This document shows, in pieces, positions 3,781 to 50,035 of a stretch of 64,000 nt of DNA. The notes beneath the pieces were generated by a model, which worked only from the letters and a program-made list of their open reading frames with translations, ran no database searches and was not told the origin of the DNA. Position numbers and translations under genes: made by a program. This stretch comes from Desulfovibrio sp. (GTDB lineage Bacteria > Desulfobacterota > Desulfovibrionia > Desulfovibrionales > Desulfovibrionaceae). The stretch spans positions 18,793 to 82,792 of the forward strand of contig JAQVYA010000001.1 of the NCBI GenBank assembly GCA_028708865.1, written 5' to 3'. Every line of letters starts with the position of its first letter. Positions within the stretch are counted from its first letter, which is position 1.

Positions 3781-4369
3781 AGAGATTCACCTTAAGGGTT
3801 GTGCTGAAGAGTCGCTCCACGTCCAGGGCCTGCTCGTGCGTATAGGCGATGCGTTTCCGGATGGCCTCGGTCCTGCCGTAGCGCCGGATCAGATCCGCGA
3901 ACCGTTCGTTCAGGGAGACGATGCGGTCGTGCGCTACGCGCTTGTCGCCGTAGATCACGGCCAGAGGCAACAGGTCACGGGGCAGTTCGGACGCAAAGGG
4001 CCAGAAAACATGGTGCATGACGCCTTGGGCCAGGGCCGGGTTGCCGGTTTCATCCATGACCCAGGAGGCGCCGAGCTGGCTATGGTTGCCTCCGTAGTGG
4101 ATGGTGTAGGCTTTGGCAATGTCGTGCAGCAGCGCTGAGGCGCGCACGGCGGCTACGTTGACGGTCAGTCCGGCCTCGTGGGCCAGGACGGCCAGATGCG
4201 TGGCCACGCGGGCCACCTGGGTGCAATGGGCGCGGATGTGGTCCGGCATGGCGTACCGGTCCCAGATGCGGGTGCATTCCGCGTCGTCCGGGACCCGGCC
4301 TGCGGGTGTTTCCGCGGGGGCGGGCGGGACGTTTAATGGCGGCAGGTATGGTTGAAGCGGGTTCTTCAT
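3737..4369 (-). CDS. HD-domain phosphohydrolase family protein
   Basis: HCTQVARVATHLAVLAHEAGL...ASALLHDIAKAY, HD-type metal motif; start uncertain (ORF extends to 4438). Confidence 0.75.
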   Translation of the reverse strand: MKNPLQPYLPPLNVPPAPAETPAGRVPDDAECTRIWDRYAMPDHIRAHCTQVARVATHLAVLAHEAGLTVNVAAVRASALLHDIAKAYTIHYGGNHSQLGASWVMDETGNPALAQGVMHHVFWPFASELPRDLLPLAVIYGDKRVAHDRIVSLNERFADLIRRYGRTEAIRKRIAYTHEQALDVERLFSTTLKVNLCESTFDRGRMVHGA

Positions 4370-4540
4370 GGCGTTCTTGCTGAGGGTTGGCCCGGGCATG
4401 GTGCCCGGATGCAGGGAACCTACCAGCAGGACCGGCAAAAGGCAAAGCCGGAACCGGGGGACGCGGAAAAAACGATACTCCGGAAGGGGCGTTCCAGTAC
4501 GGGGATTCTCGGGGTATATCTGGGGCGGGTCATTTTTCCC

Positions 4541-4569
4541 TTGATCAAATCTTCATGGGGATTTAATAC
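4541..4569 (+). promoter_or_regulatory. predicted sigma70-type promoter of dsrC
   Basis: TTGATC (4541-4546) - 17 nt - TAATAC (4564-4569). Confidence 0.6.
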
Positions 4570-4664
4570 TCGGCAACTGACCGTGGGCTGCGGGCCCGCA
4601 ATCCGCTCTGGAAAGGGCGGACGTGAGAATCTGATTTCCCACAACTCATTGAGGAGGTTAAGGA

Positions 4665-4982
4665 ATGGCTACTGTTGAGTTCAACGGCAAATCCTTTGAG
4701 GTGGATGAGGACGGTTTCCTGCAGAGCTTTGACGGCTGGAACCCGGATTGGGTCGAGTACGTCAAGGAGCAGGAAGGCATCGCCGAAATCACCGATGATC
4801 ACCAGAAGGTCATCGAGTTCCTGCAGGACTACTACAAGAAGAACGGCATCGCCCCGATGGTCCGCATCCTCTCGAAGGTCACCGGCTTCAAGCTGAAGCA
4901 GATCTACGAGCTGTTCCCGTCCGGGCCTGGCAAGGGAGCCTGTAAGATGGCTGGCCTGCCCAAGCCCACCGGCTGCGTGTAA
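4665..4982 (+). CDS. dsrC: DsrC/TusE family sulfur carrier, dissimilatory sulfite reductase-associated
   Basis: 105 aa; MATVEFNGKSFEVDEDGFL...KQIYELFPSGPGKGACKMAGLPKPTGCV with the two C-terminal-arm cysteines 11 residues apart. Confidence 0.96.
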   Translation: MATVEFNGKSFEVDEDGFLQSFDGWNPDWVEYVKEQEGIAEITDDHQKVIEFLQDYYKKNGIAPMVRILSKVTGFKLKQIYELFPSGPGKGACKMAGLPKPTGCV

Positions 4983-5004
4983 GCGCACCTTTTTCGGGTA
5001 GTAG

Positions 5005-5034
5005 GGCGGAAGCTGCGGCTTCCGCCCTTTTCTT
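5005..5034 (+). terminator. rho-independent terminator after dsrC
   Basis: GGGCGGAAG-ctgcgg-CTTCCGCCC followed by TTTTCTT. Confidence 0.85.
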
Positions 5035-5392
5035 ATGGCTGTTTTTCGGACGATGCATCCGCCCAAAACAGAATGCCCTTTCCCGGGCCGGTGTACATGA
5101 CGCCGCTCCGGAATGGCACGGCTCGCCTGCCTGTTTCCTGCCTCTTCCGTTGGGACCGCTCCTCCCGGATTCAACCGTCTCCCGCTCTGATTCAAAACCG
5201 TTCCCCGGCATTGTTTTCGCTGGATGCGCTGTTTCTTTGCATGGTCCCGCAGCAAAGACTTTGGCTGGCAATCGGTGCGGCAAAAGTGGCGCTCCCTTGG
5301 CTGGAAAGCGGATAACGTTTGCTTCGCAAGGCTCAAAAGGGTATGAAGGTCCGCACTTTATATATCGCGGTCATTCAACGTGGAGAATTGCT

Positions 5393-6487
5393 TTGAGCCT
5401 GAAACTGCTTGACGAATTTCGGAATCCGGAACTGTGCAAGGGACTGCTCGACAAGCTGCACTCCCTGGTGGACCGGGAGTTTCGCTTCATGGAGGTGTGC
5501 GGTACGCACACCGTGGCCATCTTTCAAAGCGGGCTGCGTTCGCTGCTCCCCGAGCAGGTGGTGCATCTTTCCGGACCCGGGTGTCCGGTCTGCGTGACCC
5601 ATGAGTCCGAGGTCAATGCCTTTATTGACCTGGCTGAGCGGGACGATGTGATCGTGGCCTCCTTCGGCGATTTGATGCGGGTCCCGGGCAGCCGGGGGCG
5701 CAGCTTGAAAAAAGCCCAGGCCGACGGCGCCGCTGTGGAAGTGGTCTACTCCCCGCCCGACGCCTTGAAGCTGGCCGCTGCCAACCCTGGAAAGACCGTG
5801 GTCTTTCTCGGCGTGGGGTTTGAAACCACGGCCCCCACCGTGGCCGGGACCCTGCTCATGGCGCGCGAACAAGGGCTGAAAAACTTCAAGGTCCTTTCCT
5901 TCCATAAACTGGTGCCGCCCGCCCTGGTGGCCCTCATGACCGACCCGGGAGTGCGCATCGACGCATTTCTCATGCCGGGGCATGTCTCCGCCATCATCGG
6001 CGTGGAGCCGTACAAGGTGGTGGCCGAACGTTTCGGGAAATCTTCGGCCGTGACCGGGTTTGAGCCTGCGGATATTCTCGGGGCCCTGGTTTTTCTTGCA
6101 GAACATTGGAAATCCGGCCAGCCCGCGGCGGCCAACCTTTACCCCCGCGTAGTGCGGGATGAAGGAAACGCCAAAGCCCGCGCCGTCATGGATCAGGTGT
6201 TTGAGACCACGGACGCGCTTTGGCGCGGACTGGGCATGATCCCCCGGTCCGGTCTGGAGTTGCGTTCCGAGTTCGAACCGTTCGACGCCAAAAAAGCCTT
6301 TGATCTGGAAATTGTGGAGTCCCCGGCATTGCCCGGCTGTCGTTGCGGCGACGTGCTCAAGGGCAAGCTGCGCCCGGACCAGTGTCCGCTGTTCAAGAAG
6401 GCGTGCACTCCGGCCAGCCCGGTGGGGCCCTGCATGGTTTCCACGGAAGGTTCCTGCGCCGCCTACTTCAAATACAGCATGGACTAG
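5393..6487 (+). CDS. hypD: hydrogenase formation protein HypD
   Basis: MEVCGTHTVAIFQSGLRSLLP...GPGCPVCVT...FEPFDA...CRCGDVLKG; TTG start, in frame with ORF 5150..6487. Confidence 0.95.
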   Translation: MSLKLLDEFRNPELCKGLLDKLHSLVDREFRFMEVCGTHTVAIFQSGLRSLLPEQVVHLSGPGCPVCVTHESEVNAFIDLAERDDVIVASFGDLMRVPGSRGRSLKKAQADGAAVEVVYSPPDALKLAAANPGKTVVFLGVGFETTAPTVAGTLLMAREQGLKNFKVLSFHKLVPPALVALMTDPGVRIDAFLMPGHVSAIIGVEPYKVVAERFGKSSAVTGFEPADILGALVFLAEHWKSGQPAAANLYPRVVRDEGNAKARAVMDQVFETTDALWRGLGMIPRSGLELRSEFEPFDAKKAFDLEIVESPALPGCRCGDVLKGKLRPDQCPLFKKACTPASPVGPCMVSTEGSCAAYFKYSMD

Positions 6488-6491
6488 CACG

Positions 6492-7496
6492 ATGAGCGAA
6501 AAGGTTCTTCTCGACTACGGCAGTGGCGGACGCGCTTCCCAGCGCCTTGTTTCCGAGCTTTTTTTGAAGCATTTCGACAACCCTGAGCTGGAGCGGCTCA
6601 ACGATGCCGCGCGGCTGGACCTACAAGGGCCCGTGGCCATGAGTACGGACTCCTTTACCGTGGATCCCATCTTTTTCCCCGGAGGGGATATCGGCCGTCT
6701 GGCCGTGCACGGTACGGTCAACGACGTGGCCATGCTCGGTGCGGAGCCGCAATACCTGACCTGCGGCTACATCATTGAGGAAGGCCTGCCCATGGACGAT
6801 CTGGAGCGTATCGTGGCATCCATGGGAGAGGCGGCCCGTCATGCCGGAGTGTACATCGTCACCGGCGACACCAAGGTGGTGCCGCGTGGAACGGTGGATA
6901 AGATTTTCATCAATACCACCGGGGTGGGGCGCATCGTGGCCGATCCCATGCCCAGCGGCGACCGGGCCACGCCCGGGGATGCGGTGTTGGTGTCCGGAAC
7001 CATGGGCGACCACGGACTGACCATCCTGGGCACTCGTGAAGGGCTTTCTTTTGAGGCCGCCGTGCAGAGCGATTGCGCCTCCTTGAATCATCTGCTGCTC
7101 AAATTGGTTCGGGCGCTGCCCTCGGTACATGTCCTGCGTGACCCCACCCGGGGCGGACTGGCCACGACCCTGAACGAAATCGCCATCAGTTCCAAGGCGG
7201 GCATGGAAATCGATGAACAGTCCATTCCCGTGCGGCCCGAGGTGGCGGGGGGCTGTTCGGTGCTGGGGCTGGACCCCTTGTACCTGGCCAATGAAGGAAA
7301 GTTTATTTGCATCCTTCCTGAAGCGGATGCGGAAAAAGCGTTGGAGATCATGCGCCAGGATGAGCTGGGGCGCGATGCCTGCCGCGTGGGCACCGTGACC
7401 GAGGCGAATGCGGGCAAGGTTTCTCTGGTGACGCCTTTAGGCGGCAAGCGCCTGCTGAACATGCTTGAGGGAGAACAACTGCCCCGGATTTGTTGA
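6492..7496 (+). CDS. hypE: hydrogenase expression/formation protein HypE
   Basis: MSEKVLLDYGSGGRASQRLVSELF...RDPTRGGLATTLNEIA... C-terminus PRIC (HypE C-terminal Cys). Confidence 0.95.
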   Translation: MSEKVLLDYGSGGRASQRLVSELFLKHFDNPELERLNDAARLDLQGPVAMSTDSFTVDPIFFPGGDIGRLAVHGTVNDVAMLGAEPQYLTCGYIIEEGLPMDDLERIVASMGEAARHAGVYIVTGDTKVVPRGTVDKIFINTTGVGRIVADPMPSGDRATPGDAVLVSGTMGDHGLTILGTREGLSFEAAVQSDCASLNHLLLKLVRALPSVHVLRDPTRGGLATTLNEIAISSKAGMEIDEQSIPVRPEVAGGCSVLGLDPLYLANEGKFICILPEADAEKALEIMRQDELGRDACRVGTVTEANAGKVSLVTPLGGKRLLNMLEGEQLPRIC

Positions 7497-7533
7497 CGGT
7501 TTTTGAATTCCAGGAACAGCATGGATAAAAAAA

Positions 7534-7574
7534 CGCCCGCATCGACGTAAGGCCGGTGCGGGCGACTGTTTTTT
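7534..7574. terminator. bidirectional terminator between convergent hypE and YbjN-like gene
   Basis: A-run, CGCCCGCA ... TGCGGGCG, T-run. Confidence 0.8.
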
Positions 7575-7582
7575 GGGGCAGG

Positions 7583-8065
7583 CTACCAGTTGATGTGTTG
7601 TGCGAATTCACGCAGCACGATTTTCCAGGTGCTGGCCAGGTTGCGGATGTGTTGTTCCGTGACGCCGCCCGTGACTAGGGCGTCCATTTCCACCCGGCTG
7701 TCCCCGCTGCTGTTGCGGTAGGCCCGGCCGAAGCGCTTGGTGGTGTTCCACTCGTTGATGGACTGGGCGTCCGGGTTGCTGGACTGGGTGAACCCGCTGT
7801 AGAACTGGATGGCCTCGCACACATCGCCGGAGCAATTGTAGAAGTAGACCTGGAAATTGAGGCCGTTGTCGCTGGAAGAGATCAGCGGGTCTCCGGCGTC
7901 GTCCCTGGTCAGCTCCGTGTCAAAGCCCATAGTGTTCAAAATGCGCTGCATTTCAGGCCCGGAGATTCCGTCATACAACGACTGTGCAAAGACGTTGCTG
8001 GAAAACAGGCCCAGGCACAAAGCCAGGGTGAGCAGCATGGTGAAACGGATCTTGGCCTGACGCAT
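7583..8065 (-). CDS. secreted YbjN-domain-like protein
   Basis: 160 aa, N-terminal signal peptide MRQAKIRFTMLLTLALCLGLFSSNVFAQS; YbjN-like IQRILNTMGF/NFQVYFYNC pattern. Confidence 0.65.
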   Translation of the reverse strand: MRQAKIRFTMLLTLALCLGLFSSNVFAQSLYDGISGPEMQRILNTMGFDTELTRDDAGDPLISSSDNGLNFQVYFYNCSGDVCEAIQFYSGFTQSSNPDAQSINEWNTTKRFGRAYRNSSGDSRVEMDALVTGGVTEQHIRNLASTWKIVLREFAQHINW

Positions 8066-42867: not shown

Positions 42868-43755
42868 ATGGATTTCAGAAAACTAGAAGCATTTTGCAAA
42901 GTATATGAGTTGCGCAGCTTTTCAGGTGCCGGGCAAGAGCTTCATCTTTCCCAACCAACCATCAGCGCACATGTGGCTGCCTTGGAAGACCGCCTGGGGC
43001 TGCCGCTGTTTGATCGCCTGGGCCGCAGTGTGCTCCCCACCCATGCCGGAGACGTGCTTTATCGGGAAGCCTCGGGCATTTTCGGCACGTTGCGCCGTGT
43101 GGAGGCTGAACTTTCTCTGCTTCGGGACGAGGTGGCCGGAGAACTGGTCATTGGCGGGAGCACCATTCCTGCCACATACATCTTACCTCGGCTCATGGCC
43201 CGCTTTCTTGGTCTGCATCCACTGGTGCGTATGGAGTTGCGCACCGGGGATACGGATCAGGTGACTCAGATGGTGGCGGACGGCACTCTGGACGCTGCCG
43301 TGGTGGGGTCGCGTCCCACCCTGCGTGGACTTGTGGCCGAGGCGCTGTTTACTGATCGACTTTGCGTGGTCGCTGCCCCGGACTTCGCGGTGCCGGACGT
43401 GCCATTGACTGCTTGGCCCTGGATTCGCAGGGAAAAGGGGTCAGGAACCCGTCGGGCCTTTGAACGGGTACTGGCATCCAACGGTATGGATCCGAGCTCT
43501 GGGAGCTGCGTTTGTAGTGTGTATGGCACAGAGGCGGCCCTGCGCATGGCCGCGGCCGGGGCCGGAGTGGCCGCGGTCTCGGGCCGTGCCTGTGCCGGAC
43601 TGGTGGAACGGGGCGAGTTAAAGCTGGTGGATTGTGGGCTGAGCGGTCTGGAACGACGGTTTTATCTGCTGCGTCATGAATCGCGTCGGGCTTTTCCAGC
43701 GGCCACAGCATTCATGGCCTTTCTCCGGGAACACGCTGAGCACCATGTTGAATAA
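42868..43755 (+). CDS. LysR-family regulator (resembles the selenium-metabolism-associated subgroup)
   Basis: MDFRKLEAFCKVYELRSFSGAGQELHLSQPTISAHVAALEDRLGLPLFDRLGR HTH plus LysR substrate domain; subgroup from recollection only. Confidence 0.85.
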   Translation: MDFRKLEAFCKVYELRSFSGAGQELHLSQPTISAHVAALEDRLGLPLFDRLGRSVLPTHAGDVLYREASGIFGTLRRVEAELSLLRDEVAGELVIGGSTIPATYILPRLMARFLGLHPLVRMELRTGDTDQVTQMVADGTLDAAVVGSRPTLRGLVAEALFTDRLCVVAAPDFAVPDVPLTAWPWIRREKGSGTRRAFERVLASNGMDPSSGSCVCSVYGTEAALRMAAAGAGVAAVSGRACAGLVERGELKLVDCGLSGLERRFYLLRHESRRAFPAATAFMAFLREHAEHHVE

Positions 43756-43910: not shown

Positions 43911-44750
43911 TCAGGACAGGGATGCGAATTCCAGGGGCGGCGCCTTTGGGATGATCCCGCATTGCTGGAGCATCGCAAAGAAGCGTTGCAATCCCTGCTG
44001 TTCCCGTTCTCCAAGATTATATGATAATCCATTGAAATAAGAGCACATTTCCAGTGTGTCCAGGGAGGAACCCTGTGCGGCCAGTCCGCACATGTCGGAA
44101 AGGTGTTCCTGCCCCCACTCTTTGGCGGCGATCAGTTGCCGCATGGCCTGCTCGAGCGGGCGCTGGTGTGTTTCCCAAGCTGCACGGCGCACAATCCAAA
44201 CTCCGAAAATGAAGGGCAGGCCAGTCCATTCCAGCCATTCCTGGCCCAGGTCGTATATGTAGGGATAGTCCGGGTGCCGTCGCAAGTTCAGGGCTTCATC
44301 GCCGATGGCCAGAATGGCGGGAGGGCGTTGTCCCGAGGCAAGCAGCGCTGTGGCGTCCCCACTTTCAAATCCGGCGTGGACCTTGTAGCGTCGGTCCAGC
44401 AGCATCCGGAGCAGGGCGGCCGAGGTGTGTGTCTGGGCGCTGACCAGAACGTTTTGGCCCTCCAGTGAGGCCACTGGATTTTGGGTGAGCAGCAAAACAC
44501 TCTGCACAGGCCCGTGGCAGCCAATAGCCAGGTCCGGCACGAGAAGATAGCGCTGGGGTCGGCGTGCGTATTCTATGCTGGAGTTGGCGGAAAGGTGCAG
44601 CTCGCCGCGGCGCATCTGTTCATTGAGTTCGGCGGGCACTCCGGAGACGATTTCCAGGTCGTGCCGCACCAAGCTTTGTTCCAGGGGATGATAGATGGGC
44701 AGGACATTGAGGTATCCGATTTTGCCCAGTCGCAAAGGGGAGGAGGTCAT
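43911..44750 (-). CDS. mqnA: chorismate dehydratase (futalosine menaquinone pathway)
   Basis: LRLGKIGYLNVLPIYHPLEQ...SSIEYARRPQRYLLVPDLAIGCHGPVQSVLL. Confidence 0.9.
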   Translation of the reverse strand: MTSSPLRLGKIGYLNVLPIYHPLEQSLVRHDLEIVSGVPAELNEQMRRGELHLSANSSIEYARRPQRYLLVPDLAIGCHGPVQSVLLLTQNPVASLEGQNVLVSAQTHTSAALLRMLLDRRYKVHAGFESGDATALLASGQRPPAILAIGDEALNLRRHPDYPYIYDLGQEWLEWTGLPFIFGVWIVRRAAWETHQRPLEQAMRQLIAAKEWGQEHLSDMCGLAAQGSSLDTLEMCSYFNGLSYNLGEREQQGLQRFFAMLQQCGIIPKAPPLEFASLS

Positions 44751-45808
44751 GTTCGAATCACCGGTTCATAGGTCATGGTGCGTTGCATAGGGGTATATCC
44801 GGCGGCCTGGATCAGGCGGTGAATTTCCTTGCGTGTGAGCCGGAAGGACACGCCGGCGGCCTTGACCACATTTTCCTCGATCATCAAAGAGCCGAAGTCG
44901 TTTCCGCCGAAAAATAAGGCTAATTGGGCGATTTTTGGCCCCATGGTAACCCAGGAGACCTGAATATTGTCGATATTGTCCAGGACGATGCGAGAGAGGG
45001 CCAACATGCGCAGATATTCGGGAGCTGTTGCTGGGCGGGCTTTGATGTTGGTGTTTTCGGGTTGGAAGGTCCAGGGAATGAAGGCCGTGAAGCCATGTGT
45101 GCGTTCTTGCAGGCGGCGCACGGCGAATAAGTGAGCCAGGCGGTCCTCCTCCTGTTCCTCGTGTCCGAACATCATGGTGGCGGTGGTCCGCAGGCCCTGG
45201 CGATGAGCTTCTTCCATGACCGCCAGCCATTCATCGGCGGAACACTTATTGGGCGACACGCGTTCCCGCACGGCATTGACTAGGATTTCAGCTCCGCCGC
45301 CAGGGATGGAGTGCAGACCGGCTTGGTGCAGCCGCTCAATGACCTGGGCTGTACTCATGCCGTAGAGCTTGGAAAAATAGTGGATTTCCGGCGGGGAAAA
45401 GGCATGGACGTGGATGGAGGGGAAGCTGTCATGGATAAAGGAGAGCAGTTCTTCGTAAAAGGTGAACGGCAAATCCGGATGATGCCCTCCCTGCATCAAA
45501 ATTTGGGTCCCGCCCAAAGCCAGGGTCTCCTCGATTTTTTGGGACAATTCCTCACGGCTGATCACATATCCGCCCTCTTGGCCCGGGGCCTTGTAAAAAG
45601 CGCAAAACCGGCAGCCACAGGAACAGATATTGGAGTAATTGATATTCCGATCAGCCACATAGGTGACCACCGGTTCCGGATGTTTTCTGAGTCGCACGGC
45701 ATGGGCCAGGGCGCCCAGGTCATGCAGAGACGCCTGCTCATAGAGCAGCCGGGCCTGATCAAGTGTTACTCGCTGGCCGGAACGTACGGCGTTGAAAATG
45801 GTTTGCAT
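44747..45808 (-). CDS. mqnC: cyclic dehypoxanthinyl futalosine synthase (radical SAM)
   Basis: NINYSNICSCGCRFCAFYKAPGQEGGYVIS...LMQGGHHPDLPFTFYE; ATGA overlap with mqnA. Confidence 0.93.
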   Translation of the reverse strand: MQTIFNAVRSGQRVTLDQARLLYEQASLHDLGALAHAVRLRKHPEPVVTYVADRNINYSNICSCGCRFCAFYKAPGQEGGYVISREELSQKIEETLALGGTQILMQGGHHPDLPFTFYEELLSFIHDSFPSIHVHAFSPPEIHYFSKLYGMSTAQVIERLHQAGLHSIPGGGAEILVNAVRERVSPNKCSADEWLAVMEEAHRQGLRTTATMMFGHEEQEEDRLAHLFAVRRLQERTHGFTAFIPWTFQPENTNIKARPATAPEYLRMLALSRIVLDNIDNIQVSWVTMGPKIAQLALFFGGNDFGSLMIEENVVKAAGVSFRLTRKEIHRLIQAAGYTPMQRTMTYEPVIRT

Positions 45809-45833: not shown

Positions 45834-46931
45834 TTAGGGCTGAATCGGGTTGAAGTAGGAATCGCGTTCCACGGGCCGCAGTCCACAGCCAGTGATCATA
45901 GCGTTCAATTCCTGGCGGGTGAGTCCCTGCCGGGAAGTGGCTCCGGCCTCATGCCCGATTTTCTCTTCGACCACCGTGCCATCAAAGTCGTCCGCTCCCC
46001 AGAAAAGGGCGGCCTGCGCTTGTTTGACCGTCAGCATGACCCAGTAGGCCTTAATATGCGGGACGTTGTCGAGCATCAACCGGCTCACGGCAATGGTCCG
46101 CAGTTCATCCAGGCCCGTGAGGGGGTTGGGGATTTCCAGCTTGCTGTTTTCCGTGAGAAACGGGAGAGGAATGAAGCAGACAAAGCCGCCGGTTTCATCC
46201 TGGAGGCGGCGCAATCTGTCCAGATGGTCAAGGCGCTGGGCCAGGGTTTCAATATGGCCGAAGAGCATGGTACAATTTGTTTTAATGCCAAGCTCATGCG
46301 CTTCCCTGTGAATTCGCAACCATTCCTCCGCATTGCTTTTGCGAGGGCAGACCTGTTGGCGGATTTGTGGGTCGAATATTTCGGCCCCGCCCCCGGGCAG
46401 CATGTTCAGTCCGACCGCCTTGAGGCGTTCCAGGGTCTGGCGCGTGGAGATGTTTTCAAGCCGGGCAAAGTGGGCGATTTCCACAGCTGTGAAGCATTTG
46501 AGGACCGCGTTGGGCCAGCGGGCCCGCAGGGCCGCCAGGGTGGCTTCAAAATAAGACAGGGGAAGTCTGGGATGGCAACCGCCCACAATGTGGATTTCCC
46601 GGGGGGCGGAAGGCGAAGATTCCAATTTGGCCAGGATTTCCTGCGTGTCCAACCGGAAGGCCCCGGGCTGGGTGTCGTCCTCACGCTGATAGGCGCAGAA
46701 GGTGCAGGCGTTGACACAGACGTTGGTGTAATTCACGTGCTGGTTGGCCACGTAGAACGCGGCATCGTCATGCAGCCGGGTGCGGACCCTATGGGCCAAT
46801 TCCCCGATGGCCAATGGATCTGGGCAGGTGAACAGGGTTTCGCCGTCTTCCAGGCTGAGGCGTTCTCCGGCCTCGACCTTGTCGAAGATGGTCTCCAGGC
46901 CGAGGCGGGTGTAGTATTGACGGTCAGGCAT
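45834..46931 (-). CDS. mqnE: aminofutalosine synthase (radical SAM)
   Basis: HVNYTNVCVNACTFCAYQREDDTQPGAF...EIHIVGGCHPRLPLSYFE. Confidence 0.93.
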   Translation of the reverse strand: MPDRQYYTRLGLETIFDKVEAGERLSLEDGETLFTCPDPLAIGELAHRVRTRLHDDAAFYVANQHVNYTNVCVNACTFCAYQREDDTQPGAFRLDTQEILAKLESSPSAPREIHIVGGCHPRLPLSYFEATLAALRARWPNAVLKCFTAVEIAHFARLENISTRQTLERLKAVGLNMLPGGGAEIFDPQIRQQVCPRKSNAEEWLRIHREAHELGIKTNCTMLFGHIETLAQRLDHLDRLRRLQDETGGFVCFIPLPFLTENSKLEIPNPLTGLDELRTIAVSRLMLDNVPHIKAYWVMLTVKQAQAALFWGADDFDGTVVEEKIGHEAGATSRQGLTRQELNAMITGCGLRPVERDSYFNPIQP

Positions 46932-47571
46932 GCTGTTCTCCGTTGTTTGCCGCCAGGGCGCGGCGGATGAAGTCCATGAGCTGGTCGATGCGTTGCCGGG
47001 CGTCCCCTTGGGAAAGGCCGTGCAACGCGGGATGCACCTCGGGCACGGTCAAGGATTGCAGAAGTCTGTCGAACAGCCCATCAATGAGGAAGACGGCCAT
47101 GTCCAGGTCCAGGTCGGCGCGCAGTTCGCCGCGCCGCATGCCGTCTTCCAGCAACGGTCTCAAAAATTTTGCTGAATATCCGCGGACCTGTTGCAAAAAT
47201 GGTTCGCGAAAGGGAACATTTTCCTGGAAGAGCACTTTGAGGTAGATGCGATACAGGCGAGGATGCTGTTGGACGAATTCCAGACCGGCCATGAGACTGA
47301 GACGTAACCGGTCGAATGTATCGCCTTCGGCGTTTCGGGCGGCCTTGAGCGGCCCTTTGAAGAGGTCCACCGCATGTTCAAAGACGTGTTGGAACAGGCC
47401 TTCTTTGGAGCCGAAGTATTTGAACAGCGAGCCTTTGGCAATGCCAAGCTGTTTGACCATCCGGTTGACGCTGGCCTGATGAAAGCCGTGTTGCGCAAAT
47501 TCCTCCACAGCGGTGTCCAGAACGCGCTCCTGTTTTTCCGGAGCCAAATTTTCGAATGTCTTGCTGCGCAT
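46924..47571 (-). CDS. TetR/AcrR family regulator
   Basis: ERVLDTAVEEFAQHGFHQASVNRMVKQLGIAKGSLFKYFGSKEGLFQHV; 8-bp overlap with mqnE start. Confidence 0.92.
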   Translation of the reverse strand: MRSKTFENLAPEKQERVLDTAVEEFAQHGFHQASVNRMVKQLGIAKGSLFKYFGSKEGLFQHVFEHAVDLFKGPLKAARNAEGDTFDRLRLSLMAGLEFVQQHPRLYRIYLKVLFQENVPFREPFLQQVRGYSAKFLRPLLEDGMRRGELRADLDLDMAVFLIDGLFDRLLQSLTVPEVHPALHGLSQGDARQRIDQLMDFIRRALAANNGEQHA

Positions 47572-47601
47572 CGCTTGCCTTTCCAAGAGTGGTTTTCTAT
47601 G

Positions 47602-47644
47602 GTGACCAGGTGGTCACTCTAGAAGCGACCCATGATCTTGTCAA
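47602..47644 (-). promoter_or_regulatory. predicted promoter plus TetR operator of TetR-mqnECA operon
   Basis: Minus strand TTGACA (47644-47639) - 17 nt - TAGAGT (47621-47616) overlapping palindrome GTGACC-aggt-GGTCAC (47602-47617). Confidence 0.65.
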
Positions 47645-47661: not shown

Positions 47662-48516
47662 ATGTTGGAAGGATTGCGCTTTGGAATTTCACCCTGTCCC
47701 AACGATACATATATTTTTGCTGGTCTGGCGCTGGGGCGGGTGGCCTGTTCTGCCGGTGTGCCGCGGTTTCGGTTGGCGGATGTGGAGGAGTTGAACCGCT
47801 GGGCCGTCAGCGCGGAACCGGACGTGTGCAAGGTCTCTGTAGCTGCGGCCGCCGGGCTGTTGGAGGATTACGTGCTGTTGCGCTCCGGCGGCGCTCTGGG
47901 CTGGGGAGTGGGCCCGATCCTGGCCGTGAAGGAGGGCCCTGCCGGAGGTGCGCTTGAGGCCCTGCGGGGGCGCGTAGCCGTGCCGGGAAAGCACACCACA
48001 GCCACATTGCTGTTTTCCATGCTGGCACGGGAACAGGGACTGGACGTGGAACTTGTGGAAATGGTCTATGATCAGGTCATACCGGCGGTGGCTTCCGGTG
48101 CCTGCGCAGCCGGTCTGGTGATTCATGAGGGCCGTTTTGTGCTTGGGTCGCACGAGCTGGCCGCCTTGCTGGACATGGGGGCGTGGTGGGAAGGGCGAAC
48201 CGGACTTCCCTTGCCGCTGGGCTGCATTGTGGCCCGCCGGAGCTTGGGCACGGAGCGCCTGGCCGCTCTGGATCGCAGCATTCGGGCCAGTATTGCCTAT
48301 GCTGAAGGATTCTCCCACGACGTTCGGGAATACATAGCCGAACATGCGCAGGAGCTGGACGAACAGGTGGTGCTGCGGCACATTGAAACGTTTGTGACCG
48401 AGTACAGCAGCGATGTGGGGCGCGAAGGCGAACAGGCCCTGGCCGCGCTTTTGCGCGAGTCCGCTCGGCTGAACAATAGGCCCTGGCCGGTGCGGGACTG
48501 GATTGTCCCGGCCTGA
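47662..48516 (+). CDS. mqnD: 1,4-dihydroxy-6-naphthoate synthase
   Basis: LRFGISPCPNDTYIFAGLALGRV...VPGKHTTATLLFSML; start chosen at ATG 47662 with AAGGA upstream (ORF extends to 47632). Confidence 0.92.
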   Translation: MLEGLRFGISPCPNDTYIFAGLALGRVACSAGVPRFRLADVEELNRWAVSAEPDVCKVSVAAAAGLLEDYVLLRSGGALGWGVGPILAVKEGPAGGALEALRGRVAVPGKHTTATLLFSMLAREQGLDVELVEMVYDQVIPAVASGACAAGLVIHEGRFVLGSHELAALLDMGAWWEGRTGLPLPLGCIVARRSLGTERLAALDRSIRASIAYAEGFSHDVREYIAEHAQELDEQVVLRHIETFVTEYSSDVGREGEQALAALLRESARLNNRPWPVRDWIVPA

Positions 48517-48555: not shown

Positions 48556-49479
48556 TTATTGAGGCGGGGTCACTTCCACGCTGGCTTTGGTCGCACTTTT
48601 TTTGGAGCGGTCCTGGCTGAGGACTACCCCGGCCAGCACCAGACCTGACGCGAGGTATTGCGCCCCTGTCAGGGTTTCCCCCAGGAAGAACCAGGACATG
48701 AACAGGGTTAGCACCGGAATGGTGTTGGTAAAGGCGGACGCCTGGTGTGCCGGTATTTTGCTGGATCCGTAATTGTAGAGGCCGTAGCCGCCCAGGGTGA
48801 TGAATGCGCCCAAGTAGACGATGGCCAGGATTCCTTCGGTGGAAAAGCCTTGGGGCGGGGCCGTGCTGGGAAGAAACAGCAGAGGAAAGTAGAACAGCGT
48901 GGCCTGCACCGCTTGTACCGCAGTGAGGAAGAGGGGCGGGTAGCGTACGCACATGCGCTTGAGCATGATCATGTACCCGGCGGCGCAGACCATGGCCAGA
49001 AATTCCAGAAAGTTGCCCAGTACAGGATTGGGGGCGGATTCATCGGCTTCGGCCCCGGCCGAGAGCAGTACCGCACCCACTACGGCCAGGGCGAATCCGG
49101 CCAGAGTCCGCCGGGAGATGTGCTCTTTGAGCACGAAGTGTGCTCCCACGGCCACGATCAGGGGCAAGAGGGAAACGATCATTCCGGCTTGGGAGGCGTG
49201 CGTGTTTTCCAGAGCCTTGGCCTCGAAAATGAAGTAGAAACATGGTTCACACAAGGCCATGAAGGTCAGGGGCTTCCAGTCCCCTTTTTGGTATTTGATA
49301 TTGCGGAAGTTTTTCCACAAAGCCAAAAAGCAGAGGCTGGCCACGAGCATGCGGCCGAAAATGACGATCATGGGATCGTAGTGACGGAAAGCCACTTTGA
49401 GGGCCACAAAGGAACTGGCCCATAGCACCGAAGCCGTCAACAGGGCCAGCACGGGCAAGGCCCCGGCGGAAAGACGCAT
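48556..49479 (-). CDS. DMT superfamily (EamA) transporter
   Basis: Ten hydrophobic segments, LLTASVLWASSFVALKVAF... EamA-type repeats. Confidence 0.88.
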   Translation of the reverse strand: MRLSAGALPVLALLTASVLWASSFVALKVAFRHYDPMIVIFGRMLVASLCFLALWKNFRNIKYQKGDWKPLTFMALCEPCFYFIFEAKALENTHASQAGMIVSLLPLIVAVGAHFVLKEHISRRTLAGFALAVVGAVLLSAGAEADESAPNPVLGNFLEFLAMVCAAGYMIMLKRMCVRYPPLFLTAVQAVQATLFYFPLLFLPSTAPPQGFSTEGILAIVYLGAFITLGGYGLYNYGSSKIPAHQASAFTNTIPVLTLFMSWFFLGETLTGAQYLASGLVLAGVVLSQDRSKKSATKASVEVTPPQ

Positions 49480-49481
49480 GG

Positions 49482-49970
49482 CTACTCCTTGCAGGCGTCG
49501 GCAGGCAGGGTCGGCTGCTCGTCCACGTACAGGGGCGGGTTGATTTGCTGCTTGCCGGAGCGCAGCACGATGATGGTCTGGGTGGCGCGAACCGGGGGAA
49601 TGTCATTAATGTTGGTCAGCACGTGCTCCAGGCTGGCCGTATCCGGGCAGCGGAGCTTGAGCAAAAAGCAGGCTTCGCCCACGGTGTAGTGCACTTCCAC
49701 CACTTCCGGGATTTTTGCAAAGGCCGCGGCCGCCTCTTCGGAGCGCCGCATTTCCTGAAGAAATATTTGTGCAAAGGCAAGCACCTGCATTTGCAGGGCA
49801 TTGGGGTCCAGCTCCACGGTAAAGCGGCGAATAATGCCACGTTGCTCCAGGCGTTTGATGCGCCCGTGCACGGCCGCAGCGGAAAGCCCCACCTCTTGGC
49901 CGATAAAGGCGTTGGTGGCGCGCGTGTCTTCCTGAAGGATATTAAGAATCCGTTTGTCCAGCTCGTCCAT
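49482..49970 (-). CDS. Lrp/AsnC family regulator
   Basis: MDELDKRILNILQEDTRATNAFIGQEVGLSAAAVHGRIKRLEQRGIIRRFTVELDP. Confidence 0.9.
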   Translation of the reverse strand: MDELDKRILNILQEDTRATNAFIGQEVGLSAAAVHGRIKRLEQRGIIRRFTVELDPNALQMQVLAFAQIFLQEMRRSEEAAAAFAKIPEVVEVHYTVGEACFLLKLRCPDTASLEHVLTNINDIPPVRATQTIIVLRSGKQQINPPLYVDEQPTLPADACKE

Positions 49971-50035
49971 CGTTCGTATTTCCTCCGGTGTGGCAGGCAA
50001 TAAATGAGTTCTGGCCGGAAATCAATGATGGAGGT

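Follow-up and report, generated by a model that had tools for sequence, protein, structure and literature searches.

The TetR-family protein encoded at the head of the mqnE-mqnC-mqnA operon of this Desulfovibrio genome, for which the name MqnR is proposed, is very probably a dedicated local regulator of the futalosine route, most likely a repressor modulated by a ligand, with a gene for 2-amino-3,7-dideoxy-D-threo-hept-6-ulosonate (ADH) synthase as an additional target in this genus. The wider proposition, that MqnR is a previously undescribed, phylum-wide factor in futalosine-route menaquinone synthesis that responds to a compound of the pathway and, in some genera, sets the chorismate supply via an ADH synthase paralogue, has about an even chance of being correct.

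These sulfate reducers and their relatives use menaquinone (vitamin K2) as their membrane electron carrier; to our knowledge, the setting of the menaquinone amount by the futalosine route has not been studied. The conserved regulator and its exact operator make menaquinone control testable at once and offer a handle on the metabolite that is sensed.

The mqn locus and its operator

In the window (the whole 64-kb stretch of DNA that was analyzed), the minus-strand operon runs in the order tetR, mqnE, mqnC, mqnA, and is recognized as a futalosine-pathway operon by the scores of MqnE and MqnC above their equivalog cut-offs together with PF02621 proteins as MqnA and MqnD (Table 1); the latter two, which share this family, were told apart by place and sequence. 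The likely start of mqnC is the ATG at 45808, the longest ORF extending to 45886. The sequence-only reading had described tetR as the first gene, overlapping mqnE, with mqnD divergent across the same ∼90 bp, and the coordinates agree: tetR and mqnE overlap by 8 bp (mqnC and mqnA by 4 bp), and 90 bp separate the start codons of tetR (ATG at 47571, minus strand) and mqnD (ATG at 47662, plus strand). In the flanks, a LysR-family regulator gene (window positions 42868-43755) lies between rplQ and mqnA, convergent with the mqn operon, and the minus strand past mqnD (48556-50000) carries an Lrp/AsnC regulator gene followed by an EamA-type transporter gene.

Table 1. Features of the mqn locus and of related loci (window positions, except where a locus label precedes them)
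Feature	Position	Strand	Remarks
mqnA, chorismate dehydratase	43911..44750	-	PF02621, 227.7 bits
mqnC, cyclic dehypoxanthinyl futalosine synthase	44747..45808	-	TIGR03699, 505.2 bits (cut-off 428.1)
mqnE, aminofutalosine synthase	45834..46931	-	TIGR03700, 481.2 bits (cut-off 434.6)
TetR-family regulator, proposed name MqnR	46924..47571	-	215 aa, PF00440 and PF21256
Predicted mqnD promoter	47575..47603	+	TTGCCT 47575-47580, 17-base spacer, TATGGT 47598-47603
Operator	47602..47617		GTGACCAGGTGGTCAC, 6+6 inverted repeat, centre AGGT; conserved in 51/51 non-redundant orthologous gaps
tetR-mqnECA promoter	47616..47644	-	TTGACA 47644-47639, 17-base spacer, TAGAGT 47621-47616
mqnD, 1,4-dihydroxy-6-naphthoate synthase	47662..48516	+	Divergent; PF02621, 218.9 bits
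Operator-bearing ADH synthase gene beside XRE/S24-type repressor-like gene	L154 4895-6535; L155 5156-6789; L156 5204-6836; L142 about 5449-7927		Two genera
TetR-headed transporter operons	L308 871-4067; L306 about 4100-7336; L313 4376-8410; L309

Both elements that had been read on the minus strand, a TTGACA-N17-TAGAGT promoter and a palindrome over the end of its -10 element and the start point, are confirmed by their coordinates: the perfect palindrome GTGACC-AGGT-GGTCAC, within the 90-bp tetR-mqnD gap, shares two bases with the end of the tetR-side -10 element and covers the start point. The predicted mqnD promoter, absent from the sequence-only reading and assigned by consensus matching only, abuts the palindrome from the opposite side and also ends two bases inside it. 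Since both -10 elements end inside the palindrome, one operator, occupied by one dimer, would cover both divergent start regions. The exact 6+6 palindrome has a single occurrence in the window and a single one in the 3.13-Mb genome; a perfect inverted repeat could nevertheless appear by chance in 64 kb, so that the weight of the argument rests on conservation.

Conservation in Desulfovibrionaceae and the wider phylum

Orthologs were searched for with an alignment of the TetR protein, not with the operator motif; of the 199 genomes from the family Desulfovibrionaceae, 50, representing 11 genera, have one. Wherever the context of a fetched family locus could be read, mqnD is divergent from a tetR-mqnE-mqnC-mqnA gene cluster. 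Conservation of the palindrome at orthologous loci, on which the sequence-only reading had staked its case, is complete: TGACC-N4-GGTCA is found in all 51 non-redundant tetR-mqnD gaps, drawn from the family genomes and a separate collection of named genomes, for a total of 57 sites. All ten half-site positions are invariant across these sites (the centre is GGGT or AGGT in 50 of them), yet the TetR proteins outside the genus are only ∼42-55% identical to the one described here.

The promoter on the tetR side is very regular in the relatives, nearly all of which have TTGACA or TTGACG, mostly with a 17-base spacer, and a -10 element starting with TA at the same place; the operator core starts a median of 2 bp past this -10 element. 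On the mqnD side, about half of the relatives have an element similar to TTGCCT/TTGCNT-N17-TA next to the operator, and in about half the promoter assignments are weak or lie away from the operator. The tetR-mqnD gap of some family members (L046, L048, L094, L100, L104, and L105) contains a pair of operator-like sites.

In the phylum sample, the TetR protein is present in 79 of 395 genomes. Beyond the family, mqn genes lie no more than 4.5 kb away at 65 of 76 loci, and GACC-N4-GGTC is located 27-80 bp upstream of tetR at 53 of these 76; across the phylum, many further families have the operator ahead of tetR-mqnE. In the separate collection, the TetR-carrying organisms include Pseudodesulfovibrio, Salidesulfovibrio, Fundidesulfovibrio, Humidesulfovibrio, Desulfocurvus, and a Desulfarculaceae bacterium, and from these names we infer that the phylum is Desulfobacterota. 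Further GACC-N4-GGTC sites, found between tetR and mqnE at the non-family loci L258, L271, L274, L278, and L284, suggest a separate mqnE promoter. Neither mqn genes nor the operator were found at the loci of the two weakest TetR matches (L310 and L311), and no mqn neighbors were found for distant TetR matches in Spirochaetes and Firmicutes.

Operators upstream of unlinked mqnE genes

In the Desulfarculaceae type of arrangement, tetR comes after nusB and ahead of mqnB and mqnD. In this type, mqnE lies far away and is preceded by two operators about 55 bp apart (L213 and L215). Among TetR-encoding genomes with an unlinked mqnE, GACC-N4-GGTC was detected within 400 bp upstream of this gene in 16 of 18 (one of the 16, L329, has atypical centres only; the two genes without a site are L325 and L332), compared to none of 35 genomes without a detected TetR (Fisher p about 1e-11, a value that ignores relatedness). 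Most of these 35 control genomes retain the divergent mqnD-mqnECA arrangement. Pure autoregulation is rejected by the operators that precede unlinked mqnE, and the proposal of the sequence-only reading that this TetR protein controls futalosine-pathway menaquinone synthesis is supported by the presence of the site in all tetR-mqnD gaps, in many other families, and upstream of unlinked mqnE. No TetR was found in G155, which belongs to a TetR-bearing genus; in this genome, the mqnD-mqnE gap holds GTGACCACTTGCTGAA, a degenerate half operator upstream of mqnE (L205) that is apparently a decayed operator.

ADH synthase and other sites in the genome

The pattern RTGACCRSSYGGTCAY has two perfect matches in this genome and no third. 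The second match is located about 30 bp upstream of a gene whose product scores as an ADH synthase equivalog (TIGR01949, 370.2 bits against 299.45), one of three ADH synthase paralogues in this genome. ADH synthase opens an alternative route towards chorismate, which is the substrate of MqnA. The site precedes this gene in all three members of the genus, and the same site, near the same XRE/S24-type gene, was found separately in a member of another genus, G147, whose enzyme is 66% identical. Of the 25 ADH synthase loci with a readable start, the site is found only in the three from the genus, so this target is best viewed as a lineage-specific extension.

A larger regulon of weak sites in this genome is rejected: allowing for up to two mismatches, 63 sites were counted compared to 57 for a reversed-pattern control, which is no excess. 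Of the one-mismatch sites that were inspected, the one at L146 coincides with a reading-frame start and those at L147 and L148 are within reading frames; perfect sites in TetR-less genomes are nearly all within reading frames. In G055, the site at L166 lies where a contig begins, upstream of a gene, and its centre is atypical.

The regulator protein

MqnR combines an N-terminal TetR_N helix-turn-helix domain (PF00440, 56.6 bits against a threshold of 24) with a C-terminal ligand domain of the PF21256 family (41.2 bits against 27). Its AlphaFold2 model (pLDDT 93.7) is an all-helical TetR fold of ten helices, and its nearest structural matches in the PDB are TetR folds. The closest solved structure, both by sequence (E value of 1.7e-26) and by fold (31% identity), is PDB 3nrg, the Caur_2714 protein of Chloroflexus aurantiacus, a structural-genomics entry without an assigned function; FadR, FasR, and HapR come next among the structure matches, at about 20% identity. 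The best-scoring named family is the Bacillus-type FadR (NF053878), an acyl-CoA-responsive member of the TetR family that is also among the nearest solved folds. However, MqnR differs from FadR of Bacillus in its predicted target genes, with about 22% identity and a score of 64.9 bits against the equivalog cut-off of 200. With the TetR/tetA system of Tn10 and regulators of the AcrR type, MqnR shares the N-terminal helix-turn-helix, the location of the regulator gene beside its targets, and a predicted palindromic operator over overlapping divergent promoters, but their targets are efflux genes, whereas the probable ones of MqnR belong to a cofactor biosynthesis pathway.

Proposed mechanism and alternatives

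An MqnR dimer would bind between the two -10 elements, at the palindrome TGACC-R-SS-Y-GGTCA; such binding to operator DNA is what we infer from the sequence comparisons. Bound MqnR would block RNA polymerase at the tetR-mqnECA promoter, resulting in negative autoregulation, and also at the facing mqnD promoter. Repression is the most likely sign of this control, judging from the operator position, the autoregulatory layout, and the protein family. A small molecule would alter the binding, most simply by causing release; the sequence-only reading had tentatively suggested a quinone or an intermediate. In this genus, MqnR may also bind upstream of the paralogous ADH synthase gene, thereby tying chorismate supply to menaquinone synthesis.

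The alternative that deserves most attention, tentative as it is, concerns the sign of the control or the effect of the ligand: MqnR bound at this site could be an activator, or a repressor dependent on menaquinone or a late intermediate as co-repressor and not released by an inducer. Some TetR proteins do activate, although an operator covering the -10 element and the start point fits repression. The co-repressor version draws on the frequency of end-product control in biosynthetic pathways, on TetR members that work with a ligand as co-repressor, such as FabR, and on the acyl-CoA binders FadR and FasR among the fold neighbors. It is far less probable that MqnR regulates only its own gene, with the mqn genes as passengers of the operon and the real target elsewhere, e.g., among fatty acid or efflux genes. 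TetR proteins commonly autoregulate, and FadR is both the best-scoring named family and among the nearest folds, but the FadR cut-off was missed (64.9 against 200 bits), 16 of 18 genomes have the operator upstream of an unlinked mqnE, it is also found upstream of the ADH synthase gene, and the genome offers neither a third perfect site nor an excess of weaker ones (63 against 57).

Two further explanations discount the pairing of protein and palindrome. Sites resembling GACC-N4-GGTC could suit other TetR proteins, and further sites of this form exist in the family genomes, so the palindrome might belong to a different regulator and lie beside tetR by coincidence; this is very improbable, as the site tracks the presence of TetR over many families and is absent upstream of mqnE in the 35 controls. 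That the palindrome is a functionless chance repeat, as single palindromes of this size can be in a 64-kb window, has a negligible probability and is ruled out by its invariance across all 51 independently found gaps, where its place relative to the promoter is nearly fixed.

Relation to described regulons

No published regulator of the futalosine pathway, and no TetR-type regulator of menaquinone synthesis, was found in the open-access literature. The RegPrecise collection for Desulfovibrionales relies on the same kind of evidence, i.e., a local regulator, a conserved operator, and pathway genes, and no menaquinone regulon was found in the published accounts consulted. MqnR is a TetR-family regulator like many others; its dedicated, phylum-wide role in the futalosine pathway is apparently unreported.

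The operator could also be used to find missing pathway and transport genes, and an ABC transporter is already present in several such operons. Outside the family, at several of the loci without mqn neighbors, the product of the gene or genes next to tetR is a menaquinone decarboxylase (TIGR03701, 637 bits against 496), a UbiA-type prenyltransferase, a UbiE/MenG methyltransferase, or an ABC transporter that includes an NMT1-like binding protein. In several lineages, an operon headed by the same TetR gene encodes an NMT1/SsuA-like binding protein, an ABC ATPase, a permease, and a UbiE/MenG methyltransferase (Table 1), and a tie of this transporter to menaquinone synthesis is possible. The operon at L313 additionally holds UbiD- and UbiA-type genes.
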